A DNA stretch of 64,000 nt, from contig NZ_NJGU01000007.1 in assembly GCF_002213415.1 (NCBI RefSeq), positions 248,001-312,000 on the forward strand, read 5' to 3'. Made by a program: the position numbers and the translations under genes. This document shows positions 8,885 through 24,377 of this stretch, piece after piece (the stretch's first letter is position 1; the number at the start of each line of letters is the position of its first letter). Under the pieces are notes generated by a model. That model ran no database searches. It was not told the origin of the DNA and saw only the letters and a list, made by a program, of their open reading frames with translations. The stretch comes from Herbaspirillum robiniae. GTDB lineage: Bacteria; Pseudomonadota; Gammaproteobacteria; Burkholderiales; Burkholderiaceae_D.

Positions 8885-8950
8885 AATTCTTCCCCTCGAT
8901 GGGCCTGCTCTGGGCTCACCGCCATTCCCCAGTTCTCCAGCCTTTGAAAT

Positions 8951-9006: not shown

Positions 9007-9075
9007 GTCTTCTTGTCGGTGTGCCGCATCAATGATTCGGTGGATCTGACCTTAGGTACTCTTCTTGGAGGTCTC

Positions 9076-9255
9076 GTGGACGCATTGCTCGCCCTATTTC
9101 TTGTCTCGTCAGTCTTATGCTCTGCGCCAACCTTGGCGAAGGGCGCACCTCAGCTGGAGAGAAAAAATGCAAGGTCTTGCCAGGATCTGTCTCTCGCCGT
9201 TTCGCCCAGCAATCCTAAGAGTAGCTGTCCAACGTCGCGCCTCTGTAGCCGTTAG
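9076..9255 (+). CDS. Possible small exported protein downstream of the metal-type promoter
   Basis: A 59-residue frame starting with GTG at 9076, 4 bases after a GGAGG (9067-9071). The N-terminus looks like a signal peptide (hydrophobic ALLALFLVSSVLC, then APTLAKGAP), and four cysteines follow in the N-terminal and C-terminal parts. I recognise no family. Support is positional: it is the first translatable frame about 65 bases after the predicted transcription start of the box at 8952. Codon use is not strongly coding-like, so it could be spurious, or the transcript may serve only the flgB-like gene. Confidence 0.35.
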   Translation: MDALLALFLVSSVLCSAPTLAKGAPQLERKNARSCQDLSLAVSPSNPKSSCPTSRLCSR

Positions 9256-9354
9256 CGGGCTTTTGTTGCGGATCAGACTTCAGCGTATTGATTGAGCAGA
9301 AATTCGAAGGTATGTCCGGATTGAATTGGCATTTTCTTCGTTAGGAGGCGGGTG

Positions 9355-9780
9355 ATGAACATCAACGGAATGAATGCGCTGTCGAGTGATGGTGGAGAGA
9401 AGGACGAGAAGTTTTGGAATAACGCGGTTCGTTTAGTGGAGCAAAGGCTTGGGCTGCTTGCATCGAATATCGCCAATGCCGATACACCGAACTACAAAGC
9501 CCGGGACATCGATTTCTCATCGGCTTTGAAACAGGCGATGACGAATTCAAAGTTGCCTGTCCTGTCAAAAGGGTACGCCACGGTCCCCAGAGATCTACCC
9601 GTTGAGGCCTTAGTACTCTACCGTTCTCCGACGCAACCGAGCGCGGATGGTAATACCGTAGATGTCGACCAGGAAAGCGCGGCGTTCTCTCATGAAGCGA
9701 TTCGTTATCAGTTCTTCTTGGACAAGGCAGTAGGTGAGTACAAGGAGATCGGAGATTTGTACAAAAAAATGGTGGGGTAG
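9355..9780 (+). CDS. flgB: Orphan FlgB-like flagellar basal-body rod protein
   Basis: A 141-residue protein with the proximal-rod FlgB pattern: RLGLLASNIANADTPNYKAR near residues 33-52, then FSSALKQAM. The C-terminal part (AFSHEAIRYQFFLDKAVGEY) matches the coiled rod helix. Length fits FlgB (about 130-150). I start at ATG 9355, six bases after AGGAGG (9343-9348); a GTG at 9352 is in frame. No other flagellar gene is nearby, and the neighbours are a metal-type promoter, a mechanosensitive channel and lipid A modification genes. It is therefore either a stray rod paralogue or a repurposed protein. Family call is firm; function here is unknown. Confidence 0.85.
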   Translation: MNINGMNALSSDGGEKDEKFWNNAVRLVEQRLGLLASNIANADTPNYKARDIDFSSALKQAMTNSKLPVLSKGYATVPRDLPVEALVLYRSPTQPSADGNTVDVDQESAAFSHEAIRYQFFLDKAVGEYKEIGDLYKKMVG

Positions 9781-9839
9781 TGCGAACGTCACAATGGTGT
9801 GGCGACTGCTCCCGCCGCTGACGACCGAGTTCTTTTCAG

Positions 9840-10040
9840 ATGACGCAATCCCAACAGACGCACGATGCCATCGTAGGCGTAATGAAGGTCGGCTCGGTGA
9901 TCATGCTGTTGCTTGTGCTGGCGTTTTATCTTTGGCTTAAGTTCAACGATCGTAAATCCACCAAGAAGAATCTGCAGACCAAAATCGCAACATCGAAGGC
10001 CAAGCAAAAGCGTCCACGGTCTCGTCGAACTGGGCGCTGA
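9840..10040 (+). CDS. Small single-pass membrane protein, function unknown
   Basis: A 66-residue frame with one clear transmembrane helix (about 15-32, VGSVIMLLLVLAFYLWLK) and a very basic C-terminal tail (KAKQKRPRSRRTGR), so it should sit N-out/C-in in the inner membrane. It lies 59 bases after the flgB-like gene on the same strand. No strong Shine-Dalgarno is visible. I do not recognise a family; a real gene is plausible because hydrophobic and basic parts are cleanly separated. Confidence 0.5.
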   Translation: MTQSQQTHDAIVGVMKVGSVIMLLLVLAFYLWLKFNDRKSTKKNLQTKIATSKAKQKRPRSRRTGR

Positions 10041-10211
10041 GCTATCAATTCCAGCCATCTCACACAAGACTGCTAACCAGCGGCTAATAGACGCGCGTTC
10101 GAGCCGGTGTGAGATGGCTCATTCAGAGATGCATTCGATTTCCATCGTAAATGGTTTCCCTCGCTGCTAACAGCGTGGCGGACTACTGCGCTTGAGCTTA
10201 AAGGGCCATTT

Positions 10212-11813
10212 GTGCTGACGAAGTTTCGCAAGAAAGGCGCGGTTCAAGAAGCGCCGGCAGAGGCCGGGTTCTGGCAAGTGTCGACGCCAACCTTCATTCT
10301 GCTTGTAGCGCTAGGTAGCGCGGCCCTTTATCACTTCCCCCTCTACAGATTCGCAGTCACTAATCTGGATATGTCTTCCCCAGGGGGGATTTGGACTTTA
10401 CTCACCCTATTCGTACTTGTCTTCTTTACGAACGTGTTGGTCCTGAGTGTTGTGTCCGTTTTTTCTCAGTGGCTACTGAAGTCGGCGGCGATGCTGATGG
10501 CAGCCATTAATGCGATAGCTGTTTATTTCATCGTGGTGTATGGGGTCGTACTGGACAAGACCATGATGGGCAATGTCTTCAATACTGATTTCGCGGAAGC
10601 ATCCGCACTGTTTCATCCAATGCTTCTCGTGTACGTGGCGGCGTTCGGTCTACTGCCGATATGGTTACTTGCGCGGATCTCGGTTCGGCCAGTATCTTTG
10701 ATCAAGCGAATCACCACACCTGCGGTGGCAACGGGATTGACCTTGTGCTGGTTGGTTGGAGCCTCTTGGACCTGGCTTTGGATAGACAAGTATGCCAAGC
10801 AGGTGGGTGCCATGGTGTTGCCTTGGTCTCCTGTCATTAACGGCGCACGGTATCTTTCCTCGAACTTGGCGCCTTCGCCTCGCGCAGTTCTTCCTGCGGG
10901 GACATTCGCCAGCTCGAACAGAAAGGTCGTTGTTCTCATCATTGGCGAGTCCGCACGCGCCCAGAACTTTTTTCTATACGGATACAGGCGGCAAACCAAC
11001 CCCCGCATGTCCCTTGCTGGCGTATCAGTCATCCGAAACGCCAGCTCATGCGCTACCTACACCACCGCTTCCCTGGAGTGTATCTTGAGCCCCACCACCT
11101 CTGGGGACGAGGGGAAATGGGAGGTGCTCACTACTTATCTACAGCGCAGCGGCGTAGAGGTGACTTGGAGAAGCCACAATGCCGGGGAACCCCCAATGAA
11201 GGTCCTTCACTATCAGAAGCTTGAGGATGTTAAGCAGACCTGTGTTGGCGACGAGTGCAATTACGACGGAGGATTACTTTTCGGATTAGAGAGGCACATA
11301 GCGGACTCGAAAGGGCTGCGTACCTTGGTGGTGCTGCATCTTACCGGAAGCCATGGGCCGGCATATAACACTCGATATCCAGCAAGCTTTGAGGAGTACA
11401 AACCGGTTTGCAACTCTGTCCAGCTGCAGCAGTGTAGTCAGGAGGAATTGATCAATGCCTACGATAACAGCATCCGCTACACGGACCACGTAGTTGGGCA
11501 GACGATCGATTTACTGAGGCGGCTAGACATTGACGCGACCCTGTTCTTCATCGCTGATCACGGCGAATCTTTGGGAGAAGGGCGCTTGTACCTACATGGG
11601 ACGCCGTGGCTTGTGGCTCCTGAGGAACAGAAGCGTATTCCATTCATCGTATGGAATTCCCGAGACAACATAAAAGAGAACACCACCACAAAGTTCGTTG
11701 ACGGCGCCTTTACTCAGGCGAGCGTCTTCCACAGTGTGTTGGGTGCATTCGGTATGCGGTCTCCTGTCTACAAGCCAGAGCTGGATGTTCTGCCGAAAGT
11801 GGGGCGTCCGTGA
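10212..11813 (+). CDS. eptA: EptA-type lipid A phosphoethanolamine transferase
   Basis: A 533-residue inner-membrane enzyme that transfers phosphoethanolamine from phosphatidylethanolamine to lipid A on the periplasmic side. It has a variable N-terminus, five TM helices (about 25-45, 60-80, 90-112, 135-155 and 170-190), and a sulfatase-like periplasmic domain. Visible motifs are IIGESARAQNFFLYGY (E246), CATYTTASLEC containing the acceptor threonine (T284/T285), HLTGSHGP, and ADHGESLGE followed by a conserved His in YLHGTP. The start is GTG. The last 4 bases (GTGA) overlap the PAP2 gene, so the two are translationally coupled. This modification usually reduces binding of cationic peptides such as polymyxin and can be metal-induced. 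Confidence 0.92.
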   Translation: MLTKFRKKGAVQEAPAEAGFWQVSTPTFILLVALGSAALYHFPLYRFAVTNLDMSSPGGIWTLLTLFVLVFFTNVLVLSVVSVFSQWLLKSAAMLMAAINAIAVYFIVVYGVVLDKTMMGNVFNTDFAEASALFHPMLLVYVAAFGLLPIWLLARISVRPVSLIKRITTPAVATGLTLCWLVGASWTWLWIDKYAKQVGAMVLPWSPVINGARYLSSNLAPSPRAVLPAGTFASSNRKVVVLIIGESARAQNFFLYGYRRQTNPRMSLAGVSVIRNASSCATYTTASLECILSPTTSGDEGKWEVLTTYLQRSGVEVTWRSHNAGEPPMKVLHYQKLEDVKQTCVGDECNYDGGLLFGLERHIADSKGLRTLVVLHLTGSHGPAYNTRYPASFEEYKPVCNSVQLQQCSQEELINAYDNSIRYTDHVVGQTIDLLRRLDIDATLFFIADHGESLGEGRLYLHGTPWLVAPEEQKRIPFIVWNSRDNIKENTTTKFVDGAFTQASVFHSVLGAFGMRSPVYKPELDVLPKVGRP

Positions 11814-12454
11814 AAAATCAAGTGATGCGCCGTTTGGCATGGAACGCCTTGGTTCACATACGTCGCCCTTGGCGCCTTATCGTAATCTGCCTGCTCGGCA
11901 TTGCAGTAATATCGATTTATCCATCAGATCTGGAGGTTTATCGTGAAACCCCTCCTAGCACGCATCCTATCGTTGTCGGCGTAGAGGACTACGGCCGGTA
12001 TATCAATACGGTCGTTCAGATAGGGCTCCCTTTCGTCATGCGAGATCCGGTCGGTATCTTGCAAAACCTTTATATCGCCGTGGGATCAACAATGTTGACT
12101 CATGGGCTTAAGCGCGCTCTAGATCCCGTGTTGGTAGCGGGAACCCAATTAGGTGAACGTCCCAATGGTGGCCGGCACAACATGCCATCAGGCCATTCTT
12201 CGATGGCCTCGAGCGCGATGTACTTCGTTGGCCGGCGCTACGGTTGGTGGCATCTAATTTATATGCTTCCGATTTTGCTGATGACGATGTTTGCGCGAGT
12301 GGCGTTAGATGCGCACACAATTTCGGCGGTCCTTGCCGGCGCGTTGGCTGGAATAGTAGGCGCGGCGCTATTCACTAGCTCATTTCCTCCACAAGTGAAC
12401 ATCGAGTTCGTGAAGAATGAAATTCTTCGAATAGGGAGGGCGTCATCGCGCTAG
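11810..12454 (+). CDS. PAP2-family membrane phosphatase (possible lipid A or undecaprenyl phosphatase)
   Basis: A 214-residue membrane protein of the PAP2 superfamily. Motif 2 is clear (MPSGHSSM). Motif 3 is partly kept: ARVALDAH supplies the Arg and His, but the Asp expected four residues after the His is Ala (HTISA). Motif 1 is loose (KRALDP with RP further on, ERPNGG). It starts with GTG inside the eptA stop (GTGA overlap), so it acts in the same process. It could remove a lipid A phosphate to make room for phosphoethanolamine, or recycle a lipid by-product such as diacylglycerol precursors. The substrate is not established. Its 3' end overlaps the next, converging gene by 12 bases. Confidence 0.8.
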   Translation: MKNQVMRRLAWNALVHIRRPWRLIVICLLGIAVISIYPSDLEVYRETPPSTHPIVVGVEDYGRYINTVVQIGLPFVMRDPVGILQNLYIAVGSTMLTHGLKRALDPVLVAGTQLGERPNGGRHNMPSGHSSMASSAMYFVGRRYGWWHLIYMLPILLMTMFARVALDAHTISAVLAGALAGIVGAALFTSSFPPQVNIEFVKNEILRIGRASSR

Positions 12455-12698
12455 CTTCGTTGCTTGGTTGGCCATGAGCTCTCGAAGCGTCTTTTGGAAT
12501 TCTTCCACGCGATCCATTGCGACTTGACCATGCCGTTGATCAAGTTGCTCCCAGATTAGCTTTATGTCCGCTGCTAGTCTCGGATCGTTTGATTCCAAAG
12601 CTGTTTCATACGCGACTCGTTTCAAAAGCGTCGTTACAAGCTGGCGACCTTGGTCTGTCCAGCCCACATAAGCGATAAAGCTGAAACTGTTATCAGCG
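12443..12698 (-). pseudogene. Gene fragment of unknown function cut by an IS21-type element
   Basis: The open frame reads from within the IS remnant into about 85 codons of non-IS sequence (from about ADNSFSFIAYVGWTD to the end NQATKLAR), mainly helical and charged. The apparent start codon (12787) lies inside the insertion element, so the original N-terminus seems to be lost. I recognise no family. The 3' end overlaps the PAP2 gene by 12 bases in convergent orientation. Confidence 0.45.
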
Positions 12699-13067
12699 TG
12701 TTGATTTGCTCGCAGAATTGACCCTCTCCATTTGACCCACCTTCCATTGCCTCCCGAAGGCTGCCACGCGGTCATAAGACCCTTCATATCCCAGCTCCCT
12801 TAAGTCCAGGAACATCTGTTTCAGGGTTCGTCTCTGCTTGCGAGATTTAACTGCCTCAGCGCTGAGCCAGGCTGAAAGTCGAGGCGCGAATTCATCTAGG
12901 GCACTGGATGATTGCCTTGAGGGGTAGGAAGGCTCAATCGCTCCAGATCGGATATAGCGACGAACCGTGTTTCGAGAGATGTCCAGCCGGCGGGAGATTT
13001 CCCTGATCGAGATGCGATCGCGGATGTACCAGCGTCGAATAATTCCAAGTAGGGCCACGTCTATCAC
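12693..13067 (-). pseudogene. istA: IS21 transposase IstA, N-terminal fragment
   Basis: A 124-residue frame matching the beginning of IS21-type IstA: MIDVALLGIIRRWYIRDRIS, then the resolvase-like helix-turn-helix ISIREISRRLDISRNTVRRY, and the linker ending GSYDRVAAFGRQWK. The catalytic DDE integrase domain, roughly the remaining 300-400 residues, is missing because the reading frame runs into the opposite IS end. It is therefore a remnant that may still bind IS ends. Confidence 0.8.
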
Positions 13068-13173
13068 TCCGTTCTCCCGCTCGCTGTGATGAGCAGGATT
13101 GTGGTCTAAACATGGGTCAACTTAGGATGCAAATTTCCGGGGAAAGTGGGTCAGTTTTCGATGCAACTCAACA
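12699..13173 (-). mobile_element. Internally deleted IS21-family element (about 475 bp)
   Basis: Both ends look like IS21 termini: the plus strand at 12699 begins TGTTGATTTGC, and the opposite end at 13173, read inward, begins TGTTGAGTTGC. Each end carries subterminal TTGACCC/TGACCCA repeats (for example at 12718, 12733 and around 13105-13155). Between them only the first ~120 codons of istA remain, and istB is absent. No clear target-site duplication was found. It cannot encode transposition itself but might be mobilised by a complete relative. Confidence 0.7.
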
Positions 13174-13181
13174 CTATCTAC

Positions 13182-13535
13182 TCATTTTCTTCCATGAGCA
13201 TCGACGTAGGTCTTTATGATTCTTGCCAGAGTGGTGGCATCCTCATTAGAAAGCCTATCAATTTGATCCAGAAGTAAGGTTCTTTTGGAACGGGGTTCTT
13301 CGTCTTTTGATGCCAATAGAACCCAAGGGGAAATTCCTAGCAAACGCGCGATGTACTCAATCTGTTCGATTGGTGGCGCATAAAGTCCCCGTTCGTAACG
13401 AGACACCGTTTCGACTTCGGTGCCCAGTGCTTGGGCAAGACTTTGCTGGGTCAAGCCTGCGACCAGTCGGTACTTCTTGATATTGGCGCCAATCAAGTGC
13501 ACCAACGTTTCTTTTTCGTTTGAGGATTTTGTCAT
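13182..13535 (-). CDS. XRE-family helix-turn-helix regulator
   Basis: A 117-residue cytoplasmic DNA-binding protein: HTH_3 domain at about residues 12-70 (IKKYRLVAGLTQQSLAQALG and VETVSRYERGLYAPP), then a helical C-terminus that may dimerise. The stop is 9 bases from the IS21-type end at 13173. Upstream lie two exact direct repeats (13590-13627) that are good operator candidates, so it may repress its own promoter and the divergent gene at 13742. It resembles phage or island regulators; the controlled function is unknown. Confidence 0.85.
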   Translation of the reverse strand: MTKSSNEKETLVHLIGANIKKYRLVAGLTQQSLAQALGTEVETVSRYERGLYAPPIEQIEYIARLLGISPWVLLASKDEEPRSKRTLLLDQIDRLSNEDATTLARIIKTYVDAHGRK

Positions 13536-13589
13536 GTACGGGGCCTAGAGCTCGTACATGGTGCTTTTCTATTGCTAAAACGGACAGGG

Positions 13590-13627
13590 CGTAAAATGTC
13601 TAGTTATATTGACGTAAAATGTCTAGT
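13590..13627. promoter_or_regulatory. Direct-repeat operator between divergent genes
   Basis: Two identical 15-base copies of CGTAAAATGTCTAGT at 13590-13604 and 13613-13627, centre-to-centre 23 bases (about two helical turns), in the divergent region between the XRE regulator and the gene at 13742. The repeat includes CTAG and faces the same side of the helix, as expected for a dimeric HTH regulator. Confidence 0.6.
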
Positions 13628-13741
13628 CGCTCTATTATCCCGCCTACCGCGAACGTGATGGATTCCCTATAGGTACGAGAAAATATGGAGGATTCTATCC
13701 GTGTTGAGAAGGCGGATACCTTTCGTCTAGAGGCATGAAAA

Positions 13742-14056
13742 TTGGATAAGTTGAGCTGTCCCCAGTGTGGCCGCGAGTGCGTTCCAAAATTGTGGCATTA
13801 CCAACCTATGCCTGGTGCCTTTCGGTATCTAGCCACACAACACATATGCCCCTTCTGCGCGAGTGTCATGTACGAAACCGGGGGAAGGCTTAATCCGCTA
13901 GGGTGGGTAGTGGCCGCTGCCGTGGCGATTGGTATGACGTTTGGCCTGATCGCCGAACTAGGACGGTCGCAAGACATTGGGCGAATCGCCGGCATTTTCG
14001 CGTCGTTGCTTTTCTGGGGATTTATTACATACAAAATCTTCAGACGTAAGAAGTGA
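13742..14056 (+). CDS. Small zinc-ribbon membrane protein, function unknown
   Basis: A 104-residue protein with two CxxC pairs (CPQCGREC near residue 6 and CPFC near residue 37) forming a probable zinc ribbon. Two TM helices follow (about 53-71 and 80-98), with a basic end (FRRKK). It starts with TTG at 13742 about 10 bases after AGAGG; the ATG at 13735 is followed by an early stop. It is transcribed divergently from the XRE gene and may be controlled by it. No family is recognised. Confidence 0.6.
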   Translation: MDKLSCPQCGRECVPKLWHYQPMPGAFRYLATQHICPFCASVMYETGGRLNPLGWVVAAAVAIGMTFGLIAELGRSQDIGRIAGIFASLLFWGFITYKIFRRKK

Positions 14057-14091
14057 TGGTTATATCTCTTAAAAATTTTCTATAGCCGCAG

Positions 14092-14376
14092 ATGAAAGTA
14101 AGTGAAATTCGCCCATTGTCCACCTACATCGGGATTGGTGGAGTAACAAAGATGGCTAAAAGCATCAAGATGGACGTCGACGGGAGGCTTACGGTTGAAT
14201 GGCGCCGTGTAGCTGGCAATCGTCACAACCGCGATACGCCGCTCAAAGGCTCTGAGCGGATCGAGGATTTTGCATCATGGGCCAAGGTACTGGTGGATAC
14301 CTGGTCTGCGGACTTGGCACATCACTTGGTGGATCCGCATGCTAGTGCTTCGTCTGTTGCACCTCTCACGCAATAA
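14092..14376 (+). CDS. Hypothetical protein
   Basis: A 94-residue soluble protein with no signal or TM segment. The middle (KSIKMDVDGRLTVEWRRVAG) and a charged, Trp-containing stretch (SWAKVLVDTWSADLAHHLVD) look protein-like, but I recognise no family. It lies between a zinc-ribbon protein and a HAD hydrolase, all rightward, and could be part of that small cargo operon. An internal start at about 14152 (MAKSIKMD) is possible. Confidence 0.5.
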   Translation: MKVSEIRPLSTYIGIGGVTKMAKSIKMDVDGRLTVEWRRVAGNRHNRDTPLKGSERIEDFASWAKVLVDTWSADLAHHLVDPHASASSVAPLTQ

Positions 14377-14421
14377 CAGCACCAAAAAATCCGAGCTGTG
14401 CCTATTCTTACCAGGTGAAAA

Positions 14422-15033
14422 ATGCCGCTCATTGCACTTGATGCAGATGGCGTGCTGCTGGACTACCACGCTGCCTATCGTGATGCCTGGTTTCGTGCTT
14501 TTGGCGTAAATCCATCTCTTCGAAATCCACTTGCGTATTGGCCAGTTGATCGTTGGGATGTAGAGATTTTGGCCGGTGCCGACCTTGGCAAATTCCGTGC
14601 ACAGTTCGATGAAAAATTTTGGAGTTCGATTCCCCCATGTGTTGGAGCCGTAGATGCCTGCCTCCAGCTCCGGCGAGCTGGCTTTGATTTGGTCTGTGTG
14701 ACGGCGTTAGAAGAGAGATTTCTTGGCTCCAGAAAAGAAAATCTCCTGCAATGCGGATTCCCGATCGCGGCGGTATATGGCACAGACGGCACCGCCGGCG
14801 ATGTAAGCCCCAAAGCAGCCATCTTGGAGGCGCTGAGGCCAATGGCGTTCGTTGACGATTTCCTGCCGTACTTTCGCGGTGTTCCGACCGGCATACATCG
14901 AGCACTCGTAGTTCGCGAGCCGCACGGAAGTCCAAACGTCGGCCCAGACCTGTCCCTTATCCAATCACAACATCCGGATCTTGCGCATTTTTCGAAATGG
15001 GTCTTGCGCGACGGCTTGGGAGCTGGCGCATGA
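14422..15033 (+). CDS. HAD-superfamily hydrolase
   Basis: A 203-residue cytoplasmic hydrolase with all four HAD motifs: motif I ALDADGVLLDY (nucleophile D7 and acid/base D9), motif II Thr in VCVTALEE, motif III Lys in SPKAAILEAL, and motif IV FVDDFLPYF. A small cap is inserted between motifs I and II. Substrate is not predictable; phosphatases of this layout often act on sugar phosphates or nucleotides. It starts right after the Shine-Dalgarno-like AGGTGAAAA. Confidence 0.8.
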   Translation: MPLIALDADGVLLDYHAAYRDAWFRAFGVNPSLRNPLAYWPVDRWDVEILAGADLGKFRAQFDEKFWSSIPPCVGAVDACLQLRRAGFDLVCVTALEERFLGSRKENLLQCGFPIAAVYGTDGTAGDVSPKAAILEALRPMAFVDDFLPYFRGVPTGIHRALVVREPHGSPNVGPDLSLIQSQHPDLAHFSKWVLRDGLGAGA

Positions 15034-15236
15034 GTCCTCTCTGAATAGAGGGTGAACTGACAATTCTCGTCTCGTCACGCATATTCCGAAGTCTCGTCGA
15101 CATGCAGTTTTGTCTGAGTTGAACAACCGAATTGGAACGACCTAGACAGCGCGGCAGCGAATGTCCCTCAACGGACAAGGCGAGGTCGTGGGCGGGAAAA
15201 ACTCTGGACACGTTCTTATCGAGGAGAGGAGAAATA

Positions 15237-15569
15237 ATGGCCATCGAGACCAAGTCAATGCAAATGACGCCTGCAGACGGGAATGTGTTCTCCGACCTAG
15301 GATTTACGCCAGAAGAGGCGGCTAAACTGAAGGCCGACTCTCAGCGGCTTGTCTCGTTAAAGCGTGCCCTTCAGGATCACCTGGTGACCGAACTGGCGAC
15401 TTGGATCGAAGCCAACGACCTGATGCCGGCTGATACTGCCAAGATCTTGGGCATTACTCGCCAACGTGCTTCGGACATAATCGAAAAAAACGGGATGGAG
15501 TTCTCCATTGACTTGCTAGTGAACATGCTAGCCAGAGCCGGCAAGAGCGTCACTATGCACATTGCATAG
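15237..15569 (+). CDS. HTH_37-type XRE regulator, possible antitoxin
   Basis: A 110-residue DNA-binding protein. I start it at ATG 15237 after a strong GAGGAGAGGAG. It shows the HTH_37 pattern: VFSDLGFTPEEAAKLKADSQ, then ADTAKILGITRQRASDIIEK (recognition helix) and the end MLARAGKSVTMHIA. In other genomes this family usually serves as the HigA-type antitoxin beside a RelE-like toxin. No such toxin gene is visible here; instead a HipA-like kinase follows 125 bases downstream on the same strand. Pairing with HipA is therefore an inference. Confidence 0.75.
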   Translation: MAIETKSMQMTPADGNVFSDLGFTPEEAAKLKADSQRLVSLKRALQDHLVTELATWIEANDLMPADTAKILGITRQRASDIIEKNGMEFSIDLLVNMLARAGKSVTMHIA

Positions 15570-15694
15570 AGCAAAATCTATTTGCAAACACTGCCTGTCG
15601 TTGCATCTAGGATTCCATTGCCCAGATCGATTGAACTACAAGTGCCCACGTCGTCGAACTAGGTGTCCCCCTTCACCGCAATTTGAAAAAGAGT

Positions 15695-16996
15695 ATGAAC
15701 AGCGATCCGACGCGCTATGCAGAAGTTTGGCTGAAAGGTCACCATATAGGTTGGCTTAGCAAGGCATGCCGGACAACACGCTTCCTACCAACTGAAAATT
15801 ATCGATCTGATGATCGGCGCCAAACTCTTTCCCATTCCATAACCGAGTTTGCCTATGAGTCATGGGTGCCAGGTTCTCGCAAAGGTTTCTACGATCCTGT
15901 GCTGTGTAGGGAAAACGATGAGCTACCGCCATTTTTTGCGGGACTGCTCCCCGAAGGGGCACTAAGGGGGCGTCTGGCGGCCTCCCGCGAGAGAAAGCTA
16001 GATACCGACGATTTTGGAATTCTCGTAGCTGCCGGAGAGGACTTGCCCGGAGCTGTCACGGTGGTGCCTGCGGACATCGACAAGCTAACAAACATGTTCC
16101 GCTCATATGGAGCTGCAGGCAGCCATGGAGAGCATCAGGTCGAGGTGCCGGAAAAGGCCGCTCTTGGCGCCGCCTCTCTTGCGGGCGTGCAGGATAAATT
16201 AGCGCTCTCGACATCCAAGGAGGGGCAACAATACTGCCTCCCGAGTAAAGGAAGAGTGTCTGACGTTGTCGCTAAGCTCCCGTCACCAGGAGACGATACC
16301 CAGATCATGAATGAGTATGCTTGTATGAGGTTGGCTGCGCTCGCCGGGGTGGATGTAGCACGGGCCACTCCTCGGCCCATGGACCAGATGGCTGATCATC
16401 CGGATCTCGTGGAGAGATACGGCGCTAAAACGCGCTTTTTGGCCGTCGAGCGATTTGATCGTAGCCCAGCTGGTGCAGTGCATATGGAAGACGCTTGCCA
16501 GCTCCTTGGATTGATGCCTGGGAAAAAATATGCCGGCAGGGAAAAGTTTGTGAAGCTCTTCTCAATCTTGAATCGTTTCAGCATACGGGGTATTGAAGAC
16601 GTCCATCAACTGTTCACTCGCCAGGTCGTCAACACGCTTATTGGAAACTCTGACGCACACCTGAAAAACTTTAGCGTCCTCTATCGTGACGAGATCCATC
16701 CCGAATTATCACCAGCCTACGATATTGTCTGCATGTCAGCTTTGCCGGAATTCCGAGAGCTAGCGATTAATGTAGCTATCGAAAAGCGACAGAGAGCCGA
16801 GACTTTGGCCGATTATGAGGCGATAGCCAGAGAAGCAGGCATTTCCCATGAGATTGTCAAAAATGCTGTCATGCAGACGAGCTCTCGCGCTCAGACGCTC
16901 TGGCCAGATGCATTGAAGAACATGGAAGTATCGAGAACAGTACGAGAAAAAATCTTAGAGCGACTGAAAATATTGCCGCTAGCCGCGGTGAAATAG
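15695..16996 (+). CDS. hipA: HipA-family serine/threonine kinase (toxin-like)
   Basis: A 433-residue protein (437 if the in-frame TTG at 15683 is used). The N-terminal subdomain starts YAEVWLKGHHIGWLS. The kinase core shows SLAGVQDKLALS (nucleotide binding), MNEYACMRLAALAG, FLAVERFDR, EDACQLLG, the catalytic loop NTLIGNSDAHLKNFS (D320 in this numbering) and the metal-binding Asp in SPAYDIV (D343). All key kinase residues are present, so it should be active. HipA proteins phosphorylate glutamyl-tRNA synthetase or other targets and cause growth arrest. The usual HipB partner is absent; the HTH_37 protein just upstream may take its role. Confidence 0.85.
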   Translation: MNSDPTRYAEVWLKGHHIGWLSKACRTTRFLPTENYRSDDRRQTLSHSITEFAYESWVPGSRKGFYDPVLCRENDELPPFFAGLLPEGALRGRLAASRERKLDTDDFGILVAAGEDLPGAVTVVPADIDKLTNMFRSYGAAGSHGEHQVEVPEKAALGAASLAGVQDKLALSTSKEGQQYCLPSKGRVSDVVAKLPSPGDDTQIMNEYACMRLAALAGVDVARATPRPMDQMADHPDLVERYGAKTRFLAVERFDRSPAGAVHMEDACQLLGLMPGKKYAGREKFVKLFSILNRFSIRGIEDVHQLFTRQVVNTLIGNSDAHLKNFSVLYRDEIHPELSPAYDIVCMSALPEFRELAINVAIEKRQRAETLADYEAIAREAGISHEIVKNAVMQTSSRAQTLWPDALKNMEVSRTVREKILERLKILPLAAVK

Positions 16997-17034
16997 AGAG
17001 TATTTATCGGATTTTTAATTTGCTCCGTTTCACG

Positions 17035-17565
17035 TTATTTAACTACAGTTAGTTTTTTCTGAATGGACCGAAGATCGGCAGTAAGGTTTTTGATAGTCGT
17101 CGCTTGCATTTCATTTTCCTTTTGCAGTAGCTCTAACTGCGCAGAAGCATGAAGAAGATCTATCTCCGACAAGCAATGTTTGTCCAGGAGATCGTTATAC
17201 TTCTTCTTCCACTGCGCGACTGCCGATTCCGGACTTTTTCTAACTTGCAGAGCGTTAGGCTTTGACGGAGGAGTGATCTCCAAAATCCAGTTCTTGATAT
17301 TCTGAGTCAGTACACGGTATCTCGGTTTGTGAAGTGTTTGTGGATGTATCCCCGCTCGGCGCGCAATGTTGGCCAAAGATGGTATCTCTTTGATTTGGAG
17401 AGAGGGATCGAGCTTTGCTAACTCATGCCAAATTTTCTCAAGCTCGTCATCGATTGCCTCACGCAGTTTAAGACTTGATCGGTCAGCTCGCGCCACCGCC
17501 GATTTTTGCATTTTGCTTTTGGAGATGTCGCTGAACGATCTCTTATAGGACGATTTCTCTTCCAT
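17035..17565 (-). CDS. TnpC-like small recombinase accessory protein (DUF6262-like)
   Basis: A 176-residue very basic protein, last gene of the four-gene recombinase operon (6 bases after the stop of the previous gene). It has a helix-turn-helix-like stretch (LANIARRAGIHPQTLHKPRY, about residues 64-83), then a long coiled coil (about 115-172) rich in Leu and Gln. This layout matches TnpC of Tn554-type elements, which assists or orients the recombination. GmtX-like proteins of Gamma-Mobile-Trio elements are another possibility. The role is inferred from position and layout. Confidence 0.65.
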   Translation of the reverse strand: MEEKSSYKRSFSDISKSKMQKSAVARADRSSLKLREAIDDELEKIWHELAKLDPSLQIKEIPSLANIARRAGIHPQTLHKPRYRVLTQNIKNWILEITPPSKPNALQVRKSPESAVAQWKKKYNDLLDKHCLSEIDLLHASAQLELLQKENEMQATTIKNLTADLRSIQKKLTVVK

Positions 17566-17571
17566 ATTTAT

Positions 17572-19785
17572 CTACTCAGATTTGAAGATAGCTTTTACTG
17601 TTGGATGCTGGAGCCATTTCTCTTCTAACTCAGGAAATCTTGGGACATGTGCTTTGATCTGCCCAGCCCAGTGCGATGTCATGAGGTCATCGTGCTTTAG
17701 CCGTGAAACTTCATATTCTTTCACTGCGGCTTCAATTGCTTGGTCTACATCGACAGATAGAAATCTTTCCTCCAACCTGTGCGTGCAAGATGAACTGCAG
17801 TTCGCCGGTTCTGGATTACCTTTGTTGCCTCTATTGCACGGGCTTTCTTCTCCAGGTAGTTGGGTGCAAATAACGCCCTTTCTAACTATTCTCCAATATT
17901 TCCCTTGTATGGTAAGGAGTTGCACTAGGGTCTCCGTGTCTTCCGCTCCCCAATCTTCGCCGTGGCGATGTTTGGCTTTGAGACCTTTGTCGATAGCCAA
18001 TCGAATTTGTGTTGCCGCCTTTCCTCCATAGCCATCTGCATGCTTGATTTCAGCACCATTGACGTTAGTTGAGGAAAGTATGTCTTCGACCACCTCTGTC
18101 GCGGTTAATAAACGAAGCTCTCGTAACACTTTGTCAATCTCAGTGGAAAGCGCCGGATTAGAAAGTGCGTAGTAAAGGGCCGAGGATGCCGATTTCAGAT
18201 GAAATACGTCCATAAGAAGGGCTGGAGAATGCAATATAGCTAGCGCCCCCAGTCGCACTAGAGTGGGACGAAATCGATGGCTGCGTAGGTTCTGATCGCC
18301 AGGTCGTATCGACATATTTAATGTTATCGCCAACGCTCGAAGTTCGGCGTTTATATCCGACATGAGTTGGCCCGCATCTCCACGAGCGGATATCTGTATC
18401 CAAAGAGGCCGTTGCTCAGGAGGAGTTGAGGACGAAATGAGCGCCGAAGGTTTTTCACTTAGCACGCAGAATTGATCAATGGCAGTTGCCAATGCGATTT
18501 GATTTTTTAGTGCCAGCAATGGCAATTCCGGCAAAGGCCACGTTCTGCGCATGCCATCGATCCGATCAGAATATTTGTATATTTTTCCTTCGACGTAGCT
18601 TTGGTCGTCATCTTCATAGATCAATACCGAGCGTAGCCAACTCATTGTTTCCGACCGTCTTGGAGCCGTGCAGAGCGAAAGTATAAAGAGAGACGATTGC
18701 TGTAATAGGGCTGCAATCGCCCAAACCGTCATGAAAAAACCGCCTTTATCATCGGCGGGGAAATTTCCGGTAAGGAGCTCTTGAATACTATAGTTCGCGT
18801 CGAGATCAACCTTGAAAGGAGGAACAGGAGGAGCTGCGTCCTGTAGGAATTTCTTGTGCCATTCCTTAACAATCGAGCGGATTAATTCGAATCGAATTGT
18901 TAGTGCGGAACCACTAGTGCCTGGTGAAATTCTCCACGTATCAATGACCTTATCCAGAAGCGGTAAGAATATCGGCGCCAGATTTTCCTGGAGCCAGATA
19001 CACTTGAAGGCCATTTCGGCGACATATTCGTCTGGGAGAGGAAGGTGTGGATCCGTTTGGGGGGACGGCTCATTCGCCAATGGAGGTGATGTAATGGCGG
19101 TGGGAAGATCAATTTTTTTTAGGATAGGTACGTCTGACCATAGCCCTCTTTTATTCCAGGCATACAAGCGCTTTAGTGCGATATCTACCGACTTCATGAT
19201 CGACTTTTTGTATCTCAAGCCGAGTCTTCCATTGAAGTATTGCAAAAGTGACTCGGATGCGATTGAGTCAAATTCCTTTCCATTTATTTCGATGAATTCG
19301 GTAATGGCCTGCGCGATCATCGGAAGAATACCGGCCCTTGCGTGAGACATTACGGTGCGAGGATTGAGAGGTTTTTTTGTCGTTACGCCGCTGAGATTGA
19401 TGTTCGTTTGACGCATAAGAATTAGCGATCTGGTTGCCTGAAGTACTCCAATTTCTATGAGGCTCTTGCTTTCAAATGCGGTATTGACCAGTCGGCCAGC
19501 AATTCGTCGGTTGTCTGCGCTGAGAAAGTATAGAATCCGCTTCTTAATGTCCAATGAACTCATACGTTTGCGAGAATTTGCATCCCCAATAAGCCAGCGG
19601 TCGGGCGTTGTCCACTGACCTGGTATCGAGCCTTGCAGAAGAAGACTTTGGATTTCAACTAACTCTTGTATGGATCTATGCTGAATAGACTCGGCAGCAT
19701 ATCTGCTGGAAACGGAGCGGGTGTTTTCCAAAATGTCAGACTCAATTTTGGCTGCTTCCGATTTGGGAGAAGAAGTATTTTTCAT
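17572..19785 (-). CDS. Large tyrosine recombinase-like protein (third of the operon)
   Basis: A 737-residue protein; I start it at ATG 19785, seven bases after AGAGGAG, rather than at the ATG at 19791 that would touch the Shine-Dalgarno. A ~350-residue N-terminal part precedes the catalytic domain. All tyrosine recombinase residues can be traced: box I CTAPRRSE (R376), SHRFRPTLVR (H503, R506), then VFHLKSASSALYY (H529 with the nucleophile Tyr nine residues later, Y538). A C-terminal Cys-rich segment (CTQLPGEESPC and CSSSC, about residues 645-670) may bind zinc. It is the third gene, 11 bases after the stop of the second. Larger than TnpB of Tn554 (about 630). Confidence 0.8.
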   Translation of the reverse strand: MKNTSSPKSEAAKIESDILENTRSVSSRYAAESIQHRSIQELVEIQSLLLQGSIPGQWTTPDRWLIGDANSRKRMSSLDIKKRILYFLSADNRRIAGRLVNTAFESKSLIEIGVLQATRSLILMRQTNINLSGVTTKKPLNPRTVMSHARAGILPMIAQAITEFIEINGKEFDSIASESLLQYFNGRLGLRYKKSIMKSVDIALKRLYAWNKRGLWSDVPILKKIDLPTAITSPPLANEPSPQTDPHLPLPDEYVAEMAFKCIWLQENLAPIFLPLLDKVIDTWRISPGTSGSALTIRFELIRSIVKEWHKKFLQDAAPPVPPFKVDLDANYSIQELLTGNFPADDKGGFFMTVWAIAALLQQSSLFILSLCTAPRRSETMSWLRSVLIYEDDDQSYVEGKIYKYSDRIDGMRRTWPLPELPLLALKNQIALATAIDQFCVLSEKPSALISSSTPPEQRPLWIQISARGDAGQLMSDINAELRALAITLNMSIRPGDQNLRSHRFRPTLVRLGALAILHSPALLMDVFHLKSASSALYYALSNPALSTEIDKVLRELRLLTATEVVEDILSSTNVNGAEIKHADGYGGKAATQIRLAIDKGLKAKHRHGEDWGAEDTETLVQLLTIQGKYWRIVRKGVICTQLPGEESPCNRGNKGNPEPANCSSSCTHRLEERFLSVDVDQAIEAAVKEYEVSRLKHDDLMTSHWAGQIKAHVPRFPELEEKWLQHPTVKAIFKSE

Positions 19786-19796
19786 ATACATCTCCT

Positions 19797-21839
19797 CTAG
19801 GAGTTGAAATCAAAAAATCGATGTTCCCCTGAACTTATTTTTGTTCTCCACTTCTCCAGTCCTTCTGCAATGTCCTCTTCCTTGTATCCCAAGAAGGCGA
19901 CGTTGATATTCTCCATTTCTTCGGGAAAAGAGGAGAGGAGATAGGCTTCTTGCCCCATTGTTCGTTCTAAATATTCCAGCTCTGCAAGTCGTTGGCAAAG
20001 CCCATCGATGCTTTCGCGAAGGAGCACGGCATTTTCATAGCAGAGCACGCACCGATGCACTGAACACTTCTTTTTCCCGTCTGCTACAAAGTTCGGTGCA
20101 ATCCGATTTGGTGGATTGTGCGGATCAAGGCATCCGATACCGAGTCTGCTTTTTTCGAGGTTCCTATGGTCGCGCAAACGCGCTCGTTCTTGATCTGATA
20201 CTTGGCCGTCATACACCATCTTTGCCAAAATGGTCGGATCAATCTCGCCACGCTTGCGTATCTCGCTCCATAGCGCATTGCTGAAAGTCATGAATGTCTT
20301 CCAATGCTCCGCACGTATGACAGTGTTTCGAAGGTAGATATCGGTTGAATGGGGAGAGCGATGGTTTAGACGGGCTTTGACTGTCAGTATTGATCCTCCG
20401 CTTGCGAAGTAGATGCGATTGGTAAAAAGGTCCCGAAATTGTTTTGCAGTGAGATTTGAAATCTGTTGCTTGTCTTTGCGTCGAGAATTTATATCTTCAA
20501 TTAACGATCGCAGATAAATTTTCCCACTTACTCCTTTAGCGTAATTATCTCGGTGGAGCCAGCAGATCTCGTTATGCCGCTGAAATAGCCACGGAGATCT
20601 AACGCCGGCTTCTAGCTCAAAAATCTCTTTCTTCAGATCGTGAAGGTCCGTATCTTCAGCGCGAGTGTGTTTCAAGAGGCGGACGTATTCTTCTTTGCAG
20701 TTTCGCAGCCGGTTGAATAACTCTGTTCGCAGTGGCGCGGTTCTTTTTATTAAGAACGTCAGGATAAATCCGAGTCCTCCTTGGCTCTTGAAGAGGCCTT
20801 CCACATATTGTGGCTCACCGTCGGCGCGATCTTTTATCCCCGTAAATACGAATCGGTTGGAATCTTTAGGGTGAGGTACAAGCATGTCTTGGCTAACGTC
20901 AATGCTAAGTAACGTCGCTACATTCAGGCCATAATTTGCGAGACAGAGATGAAAGGCGTTCTTGACATCGTCCTGGTTTGGGAAGAAGCCTTGATAAATC
21001 CCTTTCGAATCGATTGCTAGATCACAGATGTTCTGTCGATAAGCAGTGGCACTTTCTCTCAATGTGCAGTCCCGTTTCACTGGAGGGAGTGAGGGATTCC
21101 ATTCTTCATAGTCGCTTATCCATCTAAGAATTTTACGTTCTTGTCGACGAATAGCCGGAGCGTCTTCCTTCTGAATAAGCGGCATCCGCGATAAGCGTAG
21201 CGCATCGAAGTATTCGAATTTACGTAGTGTATGGAACCACCGATGTTTGAGCTCGTGTCTTATTAGATCCCCCTGCCAAAGAGGCGGGACAATTTTTTTT
21301 CCGGTCGACCTATCCATACGATTGCTGTCGGGATCCGGGCCGCGCCAAGTGAATTCGGTTTTTCCGAGTGCGCGTCGAGTAACGTTTACCGCTTTTAAGA
21401 AGGCGTAATACGCCTTTCCAGGAATATTGAGTTGCAGGGCCACCTGCCAATGTATTTCGGTTAAGTCGGCGACAGAGGAAACTTTCGGATGAGAGGGAAG
21501 TTCCAGTTCAACGTGGTCCATTACTCGCCACCAATTATGCAGTGACCACCGCAGCGTCACGATTGAGCTGGCGGCGTTATAGACTACTTGGTCATAGAGA
21601 GCATAGAAAAGCTCGCTGATAAGGGCTGGTCTTCCAGAATGATAAAGAGGATCGTCCGGAGCTGAATATCCGTCTCTAAATGAAGTCAAATTACATTCAG
21701 TGGGATTCTTACTATGCTCTGTAAAGAAGACTAGCGTCTCTCGTAGCTCCTCGAGATTTTTGGAGTGCGCCAAGAACGGAGCTGTCGTCTTGGCGTCAGC
21801 TCGGCGATCCTTCGGATTCTTTCCGATGCGTGTATCCAA
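19797..21839 (-). CDS. Tyrosine recombinase-like protein lacking the box I arginine (second of the operon)
   Basis: A 680-residue protein starting with TTG, 9 bases after the stop of the first recombinase gene. The C-terminal half looks like a tyrosine recombinase fold: a box I-like LANYGLNVATLLSID in which the invariant Arg is Asn (N306), then KQFRDLF (K466, R469) and LNHRSPHSTDIYL (H493 and Tyr Y502 at the normal nine-residue spacing). A Cys/His cluster follows (CSVHRCVLC, 592-600, with C570), probably zinc-binding. Loss of the arginine suggests it cannot cleave alone and acts as a partner or architectural subunit. Layout is closest to TnpB-type proteins; the identity is inferred. Confidence 0.75.
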   Translation of the reverse strand: MDTRIGKNPKDRRADAKTTAPFLAHSKNLEELRETLVFFTEHSKNPTECNLTSFRDGYSAPDDPLYHSGRPALISELFYALYDQVVYNAASSIVTLRWSLHNWWRVMDHVELELPSHPKVSSVADLTEIHWQVALQLNIPGKAYYAFLKAVNVTRRALGKTEFTWRGPDPDSNRMDRSTGKKIVPPLWQGDLIRHELKHRWFHTLRKFEYFDALRLSRMPLIQKEDAPAIRRQERKILRWISDYEEWNPSLPPVKRDCTLRESATAYRQNICDLAIDSKGIYQGFFPNQDDVKNAFHLCLANYGLNVATLLSIDVSQDMLVPHPKDSNRFVFTGIKDRADGEPQYVEGLFKSQGGLGFILTFLIKRTAPLRTELFNRLRNCKEEYVRLLKHTRAEDTDLHDLKKEIFELEAGVRSPWLFQRHNEICWLHRDNYAKGVSGKIYLRSLIEDINSRRKDKQQISNLTAKQFRDLFTNRIYFASGGSILTVKARLNHRSPHSTDIYLRNTVIRAEHWKTFMTFSNALWSEIRKRGEIDPTILAKMVYDGQVSDQERARLRDHRNLEKSRLGIGCLDPHNPPNRIAPNFVADGKKKCSVHRCVLCYENAVLLRESIDGLCQRLAELEYLERTMGQEAYLLSSFPEEMENINVAFLGYKEEDIAEGLEKWRTKISSGEHRFFDFNS

Positions 21840-21848
21840 TTCGAAGAC

Positions 21849-23156
21849 CTAGCGCCGAGCAAAGACTATTGGGCGCGATAACTTTGTCATCAGCCACTGC
21901 AAATATATGTACGTTGTGCTTTCTGAGCGATGACCAAGTTGCGGCTGGATTATGAGTTTTATTATCGTTTGCCCGTGCTCGCGAAGATGGTTATCCTTCG
22001 CCTTCTTAATATCGGAGATTGCGGGATGAGTGACCAGGCTGTTCCAGAGTACGGAGCATGCCCACCAATGCCGTCCTAAATGCGGCGTCCAATTCTTTTT
22101 TCCGATTCTTATTTTGTTCCAGCGACGATAGATTTCTGCTCCATCGAAGCGTTTTCCATCTCTTTCCCGAAGGAAGAGGTGTACTGTCGCTTTTACGGCA
22201 TTGGCTCTTAACCGGGCATCGGGCATATGGGAAATTAGTGCATTGATAGACCGGTTTCTGGTGTCATTTCTGTACTGATCCCAGAGCAGGGCCAGACGAA
22301 GTGGCATCAAGATATGCCGTTCAGGGCCAATCTTGTCGCCATGGTCTTGCCCAGACCAGCGGCCTTTCGTACCGTATCTAATGGCTATGCGAACTTGCTG
22401 AAGATCATCGGGCTCTTTGGGGTTTACGATTTTCCACTCGTCTCTTCGAAGTGGCAATGTATCCATCCGCAGGCTGGCGACCTCTTCTCTCCGCATCGCA
22501 GTACATAAAATCGTTTCGCAGATCAGGCCAAAAGTAGTCCCATCTTTTTGATAGACCTCTTTGAGCCAATGCTCAACTTCCTCATGCTCGGGCAATATAA
22601 GTGGCTTAGGAAACGCATCGGCGGCTTGGCCGCCACGGATTCGAACCGTTTTCGAAAACTTCACCTCATCGTTTGTAACTGTAGTCCGGCTAATGGTTTT
22701 CTCAGTATATGGGACTGAGAACTCCGTTCTGTTACCTTTCTGCGACAGCCATGTCAGGAAATCACATGCATGTTGCGTGCGAAGATTCGCAGTTTTAGGG
22801 GAGAGTCCTTTGCCTGTACGAGACCAACTTCCCTCAATCATTTCCCTCTGATATTCGAGCGCGTGGGTACGGTATGTGCATGTTGCAATGTCAACTCCGC
22901 GCGTTTCACACCATTCCAGAAAGTTTGCAATCCACTCCGCGTAGCTGTAAAGGGTTCGCGGTGACGGACGCATTACTGACACTGAATTATGGTTGGACTG
23001 ACAAGTCCACACGCCTGTCCCTCGCTCAATCAAGTACCTATTTGCCAACCGATGGTAACCAGAGTTGCTATCCAAAATGAACGGCACGTGCTGCAAGGCC
23101 GGGTATTTATCCACAACCAAATGGGATGGCGAGTGGACAGTGAAGCGAAGCGTCAT
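21849..23156 (-). CDS. Tyrosine recombinase (first gene of the four-gene operon)
   Basis: A 435-residue site-specific recombinase. The frame stays open much further upstream across the porin, but the credible start is ATG 23156 (MTLRFTVHSPSHLVVDKYP) behind GGAGAG. A SAM-like DNA-binding domain spans about 65-145 (LYSYAEWIANFLEWCE, CDFLTWLSQ). The catalytic domain has the full set: LCTAMRREEVASLR (R222), TPHLGRHW (H359, R362), LGHRSESTTYIYLQ (H409, Y418). It is the first gene of a tight leftward operon (gaps of 9, 11 and 6 bases) and sits at the right edge of the low-GC island, the usual place for the integrase. Confidence 0.9.
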   Translation of the reverse strand: MTLRFTVHSPSHLVVDKYPALQHVPFILDSNSGYHRLANRYLIERGTGVWTCQSNHNSVSVMRPSPRTLYSYAEWIANFLEWCETRGVDIATCTYRTHALEYQREMIEGSWSRTGKGLSPKTANLRTQHACDFLTWLSQKGNRTEFSVPYTEKTISRTTVTNDEVKFSKTVRIRGGQAADAFPKPLILPEHEEVEHWLKEVYQKDGTTFGLICETILCTAMRREEVASLRMDTLPLRRDEWKIVNPKEPDDLQQVRIAIRYGTKGRWSGQDHGDKIGPERHILMPLRLALLWDQYRNDTRNRSINALISHMPDARLRANAVKATVHLFLRERDGKRFDGAEIYRRWNKIRIGKKNWTPHLGRHWWACSVLWNSLVTHPAISDIKKAKDNHLREHGQTIIKLIIQPQLGHRSESTTYIYLQWLMTKLSRPIVFARR

Positions 23157-23246
23157 TTGAATTCTCTCCGGACGATTAAAGCCAGCATAGGAGGAAGTTT
23201 CAGGGGGTTCAAGTCTCGGCTTATATTTTTTTATGAAAAAACATAA
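23157..23246. other. Probable right border of the low-GC island
   Basis: The 90 bases between the recombinase start and the porin ATG are AT-rich; GC rises abruptly at the porin coding sequence. The region must hold the promoter of the recombinase operon. No inverted repeat or attachment-site duplication is visible from this side alone. The left border is outside the window, so the att core cannot be defined here. Confidence 0.5.
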
Positions 23247-24377
23247 ATGAAAAAAAAAGCATTTGCATTGGCCGCTCTCGGGCTGATCTCCGCCACGGCC
23301 GCGCAAGCGCAAAGCAGCGTCACCATCTACGGTCTGATCGACACCGGCGTGACCTACATGAGCAACGTGAAGAAGGCAGGCGTCAATGAAAACGGCTCGC
23401 GCTTCGGCATCGACTCGGGCATCTCGTCGAGCTCGCGCATCGGCTTTCGCGGCACCGAGGACCTGGGCGGTGGCCTGAAGGCCCTGTTCGTGCTGGAAAA
23501 CGGCTTCAACGGCGACACCGGCGGCATGGGCTCGTCGGGCGTGCTGTTCGACCGCAAGTCGGTGGTCGGCCTGTCCGGCGGCTTCGGCACCGTCACCGTG
23601 GGCCGCCAGGCGGACTACCTGGACGACATCGGCTCCAAGTACACCTCGGCACAGACCTTCGGCTCCAACAGCCAGAAGGGCGCGCACGCCAACAACATCG
23701 ACCGCACCTCCACCGGCCGCAACGACAACTCGGTGCGCTTCGACACCGCCAACCTGAGCGGCTTCACCGGCAGCCTGTACTACGCCTTCGGCGAAGTCGC
23801 CGGCAAGACCTCGGCCGGCCAGGGCTTCGGCATCGGCGGCAACTACGCCAACGGTCCGTTCGGCATCGGCGCGGCCTACTTCCAGACCAAGCTGTCGGCC
23901 AATGCCGCGCCTTACAGCGCCGGCGACACCAACCTGAAGACCTTCACCATCGGCACCAGCTACCAGTTCGGCCCGGCCAAGCTGTACGGCGCATGGTCGC
24001 AAGGCAAGCGTCCGACCGCCGCCAACCAGACCAGCCGCCTGGCATCGGTGGGCGCTGCGCGCAAGGCCAACATCTTCGACATCGGCGTCGACTACGCCCT
24101 GAGCCAGAACCTGCACCTGCTGGGCAGCGTGATCCATTCGCGCATGGACTTCAACCGCGTCGCCGGCAGCACCTTCTCGACCTCGGGCAAGACCACCCAG
24201 TTCAACCTGGGCGTGGATTACTTCCTGTCCAAGCGCACCGACGTCTACGCGATGTGGAGCAACCTGCGCGCGCAGGACGTGGTCAACCCGGGCGTGGTCA
24301 ACAATGCGGCCGACTTCGGCGCATGGGATGACTCCACCCAGAACGTGCTGCGCGTGGGCCTGCGTCACAAGTTCTAA
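23247..24377 (+). CDS. Gram-negative trimeric porin (OmpC/Omp32 type)
   Basis: A 376-residue outer-membrane porin with signal peptide MKKKAFALAALGLISATAAQ, mature start SSVTIYGLIDTGV, hallmark SRIGFRGTEDLGGGLKALF, and C-terminal GLRHKF. It is a very GC-rich resident gene. Its ATG overlaps the stop of a five-codon frame (MKKHK) and has no good Shine-Dalgarno; an AGGAGG at 23190 is too far away. Because the island border lies within ~90 bases upstream, the native promoter and leader may have been replaced. A conserved 3' element and a terminator follow (24388-24453). Related to the porin at 50538. Confidence 0.93.
   Translation: MKKKAFALAALGLISATAAQAQSSVTIYGLIDTGVTYMSNVKKAGVNENGSRFGIDSGISSSSRIGFRGTEDLGGGLKALFVLENGFNGDTGGMGSSGVLFDRKSVVGLSGGFGTVTVGRQADYLDDIGSKYTSAQTFGSNSQKGAHANNIDRTSTGRNDNSVRFDTANLSGFTGSLYYAFGEVAGKTSAGQGFGIGGNYANGPFGIGAAYFQTKLSANAAPYSAGDTNLKTFTIGTSYQFGPAKLYGAWSQGKRPTAANQTSRLASVGAARKANIFDIGVDYALSQNLHLLGSVIHSRMDFNRVAGSTFSTSGKTTQFNLGVDYFLSKRTDVYAMWSNLRAQDVVNPGVVNNAADFGAWDDSTQNVLRVGLRHKF

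Follow-up and report, generated by a model that had tools for sequence, protein, structure and literature searches.

The window analysed here is a 64,000-nucleotide stretch of Herbaspirillum robiniae DNA (RefSeq assembly GCF_002213415.1, contig NZ_NJGU01000007.1, positions 248,001 to 312,000). Four adjacent genes on its minus strand, numbered 1 to 4 below, probably serve as the recombination module of a 42,254-bp integrative element, site-specific and of the SE/GInt kind, whose insertion point is the start codon of a core porin gene (estimated probability about 0.8). This assignment is based on the four-gene order, kept in all ten operons of the lineage and co-linear with SE-6945, the SE of pAQU1 and other operons; on the catalytic columns, an empty site in two genomes (L165 and L166) and a 6-bp border pattern in four of four elements; on terminal inverted repeats (11, 8, 7 and 8 of 12 bases) together with low guanine-plus-cytosine (GC) content; and on published knock-outs, in which all four gin genes of GInts were essential (PMC5385486) and intA, intB and srap of SEs were needed, a tfp mutant having proved unobtainable (PMC10214605). 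The footprint of integration was observed directly, and the element is predicted to be mobile. As such it is a well-preserved member of a kind that is already described. A preliminary description of this DNA had supposed an under-described transposition module; this did not hold, since four-gene modules of such make-up have been published and named as SEs (PMC10214605) and GInts (PMC5385486). The lineage of the window was not found set apart in the literature searched.

Open reading frame coordinates bore out the four protein lengths first reported and the gaps of 9, 11 and 6 bp between genes 1 and 2, 2 and 3, and 3 and 4 (Table 1). An alternative in-frame start of gene 3, two codons upstream, would give a protein of 739 aa. 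The host genome has one copy of the operon. Scans of all four proteins against Pfam and NCBIfam gave nothing decisive: gene 1 matched Phage_integrase weakly (4.9e-5, under the curated cut-off), the Microvirga homologue of gene 2 matched the same family at 4e-9, and gene 4 gave no reliable match in Pfam. The Srap of the pAQU1 SE weakly matched DUF6262 (0.0011, under the cut-off), and no such match was found for gene 4 of the window lineage. The fold model of the gene 2 protein was mediocre (pLDDT 67.6, pTM 0.47); its top Foldseek matches were Cre, XerH and Tre, and this is taken as supporting evidence only, because the best E value was 0.027 and none reached 0.001.

Table 1. Features of the element and its insertion site in the window (window coordinates).
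Feature	Position	Strand	Remarks
Part of the element inside the window	1..23246	.	Far end outside, at contig position 228,993; window starts at 248,001
CDF-type cation efflux protein	343..1281	+	Pfam Cation_efflux 5e-46
EptA/EptB-type phosphoethanolamine transferase	10212..11813	+	Pfam EptA_B_N 3.6e-28, Sulfatase 6.1e-46
Helix-turn-helix (HTH) protein before HipA	15132..15569	+	Pfam HTH_37 2.4e-11
HipA-type protein	15683..16996	+	Pfam HipA_C 7.8e-46
Gene 4, small HTH/coiled-coil-like protein, 176 aa	17035..17565	-	ATG start; Srap/GinD/TnpC-like position; weak conservation
Gene 3, predicted tyrosine recombinase with Cys-rich C-terminal part, 737 aa	17572..19785	-	ATG start; IntB/TnpB-like position
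Gene 2, putative degenerate tyrosine-recombinase-like protein, 680 aa	19797..21839	-	TTG start; Tfp-like position
Gene 1, predicted tyrosine recombinase, 435 aa	21849..23156	-	ATG start; IntA/GinA/TnpA-like position; catalytic set complete
Gene-1-side terminus	23233..23246	-	Minus-strand reading starts TTATGTTTTTTCAT; inverted-repeat match to far terminus
Target 6 bp ATGAAA, native, beside gene-1 end	23247..23252	+	Empty sites L165 and L166
Core porin gene, start codon adjoining the element	23247..24377	+	Pfam Porin_4 7.8e-57

The catalytic residues of gene 1 (R222/H359/R362/H409/Y418) form the full set that had been claimed for it. The same claim for gene 3 was nearly right: R376/H503/R506/Y539 are in place, but the third-box His column holds Leu. 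One more large recombinase had also been counted; the extra large protein exists, but, judged by its residues only, gene 2 appears to encode a catalytically degenerate recombinase-like protein and not a third active recombinase. In it Asn306 replaces the first Arg and Lys466 the His, and Arg469, His493 and Tyr502 are retained. Across a set of 26 operons, gene 1 keeps both Arg and the Tyr in 26/26 and each His in 25/26, and gene 3 keeps both Arg and the Tyr in 26/26, the His in 24/26 and the third-box His in 25/26, the window being the exception. In gene 2 the first Arg is replaced by Asn in 23/26 (by Gly in SE-6945, Thr in Alteromonas and Glu in Agrobacterium), the His is present in 0/26, and the second Arg and the Tyr in 25/26 each. 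In nine further operons Asn was found in 9/9, His in 1/9 and Tyr in 8/9, so that 32 of 35 operons in total have Asn in place of the first catalytic Arg. Of the RHRY residues, gene 2 of the window has lost the first Arg and the His and keeps the second Arg and the Tyr; the second protein of the pAQU1 SE has the same pattern, and that of SE-6945 has lost more.

The element was delimited by base composition and by comparison with empty sites. The GC content falls from ~0.67 to ~0.5 near contig position 228,900 and climbs again at the porin gene; it is 0.526 in the element and 0.666 and 0.685 in the flanks. Within the window the operon has 0.475, the part to its left 0.524 and the part to its right 0.675, in agreement with the earlier placement of the operon at the border of a low-GC island. 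The proposal of a Tn554 TnpA-TnpB-TnpC sort of module at the end of a large cargo island also stood, the operon lying at one terminus of the 42 kb element. The heme oxygenase gene left of the island was matched in 18 of the 34 genomes of the genus (its own counted). In 2 of the 17 other genomes (L165, L166) it lies directly beside the porin gene, with the porin start as it is right of the island; no porin motif was found in about 1.5 kb of heme oxygenase flank examined at the remaining loci. Alignment with the empty sites puts the breakpoints at the porin start, GGGGTATTC-ATGAAA-AAG; the left border of the element reads GGGGTATTC-ATAGGA-TTATGTTTTTTATG and the right border ATGAAAAAACATAA-ATGAAA-AAA. 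The ends form an inverted repeat matching at 11 of the first 12 bases, a value not once reached among 20,000 random 12-mers drawn from the element. A scan of the borders for direct repeats gave only chance-like pairs, with no clear long repeat; the ends were set by the empty-site comparison. The right border showed no sigma-70-like promoter.

Sister elements were found in Massilia aurea, Duganella fentianensis and genome G899, with the gene-1 end at one shared position of a Mg-chelatase-like gene, presumably comM; the Duganella fragment of this gene matches the Mg_chelatase and ChlI domains. The target gene resumes past elements of 33,582 bp (Massilia aurea), 10,196 bp (Duganella fentianensis) and 40,637 bp (G899), whose terminal repeats match at 8, 7 and 8 of 12 positions (chance 0.002, 0.01 and 0.002 against random 12-mers). 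In all four elements the 6 bp on the gene-1 side are the target's own (TTTCAT, TTCTGG, TCCTCG and TTCTCG, read from gene 1 towards the cargo), and the 6 bp on the far side are foreign (TCCTAT, ACGTAG, CTATCG and TGGACG), with 2 or 3 of 6 bases in common with the native ones. For the sisters, the native 6 bp were judged from the reading frame across the two gene halves, and no intact copy of their target gene was found among the loci in hand. The pattern is the border rule published for SEs, in which attL has the 6 bp of attB and attR the 6 bp carried by the circle (PMC10214605). This rule alone cannot separate an SE from a GInt, because GInts are also reported with 6-nt staggered cuts; a 6-bp footprint is reported for Tn554 too (PMC10214605).

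When named genomes were scanned with an alignment of gene 2, there were 68 pattern matches, five of them confirmed relatives (Duganella fentianensis, Massilia aurea, Caballeronia sp., Duganella sacchari and a Microvirga plasmid). The four genes were in identical order and orientation in 5/5 of these loci, more than chance would give; the earlier reading as a single operon was right. Genome searches added four further complete operons (L058-L061), three in the family of the window and one (G682) in another class of the phylum. The lineage thus comprises ten operons including that of the window, mostly from Burkholderiales with one from Microvirga, and the four-gene order is kept in 10/10. This lineage is uncommon: the gene 2 protein was matched in 2 of 399 genomes of the order, and the gene-2 profile gave matches at E ≤ 0.01 in 69 of 294 genomes of the family, full-length in only 6 (the window's own counted in each case). 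In trees of 35 rows the ten operons form one branch, with support of 100/99 for gene 1, 100/100 for gene 2 and 100 in the gene-3 tree, which was made by a quick method. Incomplete, rearranged or other operons (L062, L064, L066, L067, L112, L114, L116 and L137) were left out of the counts, as were L138-L140 and the lists of plasmid matches, which gave sampled rows only; L056, L057, L008 and L004 are duplicates of L010, L009, L011 and L013. One of the loci left out, L066 (7046-9076), from a genome of the same genus, has a gene-2-like start that continues in frame into what by eye resembles a flavin amine oxidase; here a truncated module is joined to a different gene. Another, L114 (325-3179), encodes adjacent gene-1-, gene-3- and gene-4-like proteins without gene 2, a three-gene operon as in Tn554.

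The SE references compared were the SE of pAQU1 and SE-6945 on pSEA1 (whose second protein has the accession published for Tfp), plus further plasmid operons. The published SE module is intA-tfp-intB-srap, with Tfp described as lacking the catalytic motif, and the survey in question reports SEs in Gammaproteobacteria only (PMC10214605). SEs are further characterized by one-strand circularization that generates no empty site. The window module shares the order catalytic, degenerate, catalytic and small accessory protein, with co-linear genes; in both, the element end adjoins gene 1, terminal inverted repeats are present (imperfect, 13-19 bp, in SEs; PMC10214605), and the 6 bp at the border next to gene 1 are native, those at the far border foreign. 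All-against-all blastp of the 26 operons, SE-6945 included (E ≤ 1e-3), gave 996 ordered matches agreeing in position (323, 243, 300 and 130 for positions 1, 2, 3 and 4) versus 4 crossing positions. This demonstrates co-linearity among related operons and not natural frequency, because the operons were selected by a match to the gene-2 or gene-3 query and a readable order. In this set, gene 4 of AgroTi is doubtful (77 aa, 188 bp after gene 3), and the annotated frame of gene 1 in PpCP047312 is short (283 aa). Of the nine operons added for the residue counts, L132 showed no gene 4, the gene-4 match of L135 was on the opposite strand, and in L111 the second gene was identified from its position. 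In the related plasmid operons L069, L070 and L080, the sequence upstream of gene 1 resembles by eye the start of umuC, a target of other elements (PMC8012812); L069 and L080 also have an annotated umuD upstream. In L074 (annotated) and L063 (by eye), gene 4 is followed by a thymidylate synthase gene, which may be a carried copy of a target gene.

Several observations weigh against this assignment. Direct blastp of genes 2-4 to canonical SE proteins was at or near noise, genes 2 and 4 giving no match better than E 0.7 to canonical SE rows and being linked to them only through intermediate operons; kinship with SEs is therefore argued from gene order, catalytic pattern, border pattern and those intermediates. 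Alignment by hhalign of three-member profiles with single pAQU1 SE proteins gave 78% for gene 1 and <2% for the others. The trees place the canonical SE rows away from the lineage, with deep branches partly weak and long-branch warnings. The terminal-repeat match of the three sisters is modest (chance 0.002-0.01 each), the empty sites are from congeners of species other than the host, and the third box of gene 3 reads VFHLKS, most lineage members having VFGHKS or similar.

The window module differs from SEs in that its genes 2-4 are too distant for direct blastp, in its separate branch in the trees, in its length of 42 kb compared with the SE median of 15.7 kb, and in its hosts, Burkholderiales and one Microvirga, whereas the SE survey had none in Alpha- or Betaproteobacteria (PMC10214605). 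The strongest alternative is a plain GInt (ginABCD, of the Tn6571/Tn6488 type), in which 6-nt staggered cuts and heteroduplex repair would accompany excision and reintegration, instead of SE-like one-strand copying; we regard this as somewhat short of an even chance. GInts are known from Betaproteobacteria and other groups, with 2.5-70 kb of cargo, 6-nt staggered cuts and hybrid attL/attR sites (PMC5385486). Their median size is 34.9 kb (PMC10214605), and their survey accepted BlastP matches up to E 0.1 (PMC5385486). By published description only, a GInt has three recombinase-type proteins and a small protein encoded in one operon at one end, as the window element does; a large cargo (42,254 bp is within the range), the 6-nt stagger, site-specific insertion into coding genes and a betaproteobacterial host are likewise shared. 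GInts are described as flanked by imperfect direct repeats of 10-17 nt (PMC5385486). Against a plain GInt stands the position of the degenerate protein: in the published text the first Arg is missing in GinC (PMC5385486), listed after GinA and GinB, both with catalytic motifs (PMC5385486, PMC10214605), whereas in the window operon the second gene lacks it. A diverse gene-3 profile was used to look for operons with the GInt order as published (catalytic, catalytic, degenerate), and none was found among the loci read. At E ≤ 0.001, 224 of 274 genomes of the class were matched, mostly by short frames like ordinary integrases, and six loci were read. At E ≤ 1e-9, 13 of 300 genomes of the order were matched; seven were read as new loci, three were already in hand (G000, G119, G171) and three were unread (G027, G280, G113). 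A search for an E. coli GInt by DNA similarity from a Providencia operon gave no match.

Tn6571 and Tn6488, with ginABCD as core determinant, have been tabulated as subfamilies of the Tn554 family (PMC8865565), and a GInt has been termed a Tn6571-family transposon (PMC10121019). Tn554 resembles the window module in its two catalytic recombinases, the second long, and small accessory protein, in equal relative order, but TnpA-TnpB-TnpC lacks the degenerate second gene, the large additional gene that is second in 10/10 operons of the lineage. RIT elements (ritA-ritB-ritC) also have three adjacent recombinase genes; their proteins are reported as 315-410 aa long, all with the catalytic Tyr and with no fourth gene (PMC10214605). 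With proteins of 435, 680 and 737 aa and a gene for 176 aa, the window operon falls outside the RIT definition. No Gamma-Mobile-Trio family name appeared among the NCBIfam matches, in a general scan of a library that may not hold such models. The Gamma-Mobile-Trio (GmtY-Z-X) likewise combines several mobility genes with cargo.

It is unlikely that the operon is a degenerate, immobile relic at the edge of an island built from several insertions. The single copy in the host genome, the missing third-box His of gene 3 and cargo fragments resembling by eye pieces of transposases would fit a relic, but all four frames are open and both ends and the 6-bp pattern are intact. Random neighbouring integrases without joint function were refuted by synteny, the order being the same in 10/10 lineage operons and co-linear in the set of 26.

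In the SE/GInt-kind element proposed here, genes 1 and 3 would encode the two active recombinases, cutting the ends and the target with a 6-nt stagger and exchanging strands there, as their residues and the published knock-outs suggest. Gene 2, with Asn for the first Arg, may hold the complex together or set which strand is exchanged, and gene 4 would be an accessory factor of the TnpC/Srap type. As in SEs, the circular intermediate probably takes along the 6 bp that flank the gene-1 end at the old site; after integration at a new site these would lie next to the far end. The borders point to exchange of one strand. We offer more tentatively, at rather less than even odds, the proposal that SE-type one-strand, copy-like transposition extends beyond Gammaproteobacteria, in a separate deep lineage of Burkholderiales and Alphaproteobacteria whose second protein has Asn fixed in place of the first Arg and the Tyr kept.

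The metal and HipA cargo noted earlier was confirmed by Pfam, with CDF-type cation efflux and HipA-type proteins (Table 1); further Pfam-confirmed cargo comprises a P-type ATPase, an outer-membrane efflux protein, a second sulfatase-domain protein and a mechanosensitive-channel domain. The element carries relatives of the two core genes that neighbour its insertion site. A second porin gene just inside the far end (L144:1298-2425, contig 229298-230425) is 75% identical to the target porin (window 23247-24377) and on the same strand; it sits downstream of the displaced porin promoter region and is perhaps a stand-in for the interrupted target. A cargo sulfatase-domain protein (L144:9419-11104) is 76% identical to the core gene beside the target porin (window 24494-26170). 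By eye, two similar stretches look like the beginning of an IS21-type transposase; the first lies in mid-cargo (window 12693-13067), the second near the far end (contig ~230.6 kb).

The 42 kb island has landed on a porin start codon, and its cargo includes metal efflux as well as proteins of the HipA and phosphoethanolamine-transferase types. Gene-for-gene co-linearity ties the SE-like and related operons together, and the SE gene order is now found in hosts where the published search, as cited, found none. With exact ends for four natural elements, the one-strand model becomes testable outside Vibrio. If that model applied to the lineage, gene 2 would be a conserved crippled recombinase deciding which strand is exchanged, and SEs, GInts and the window lineage would be one superfamily with one mechanism.

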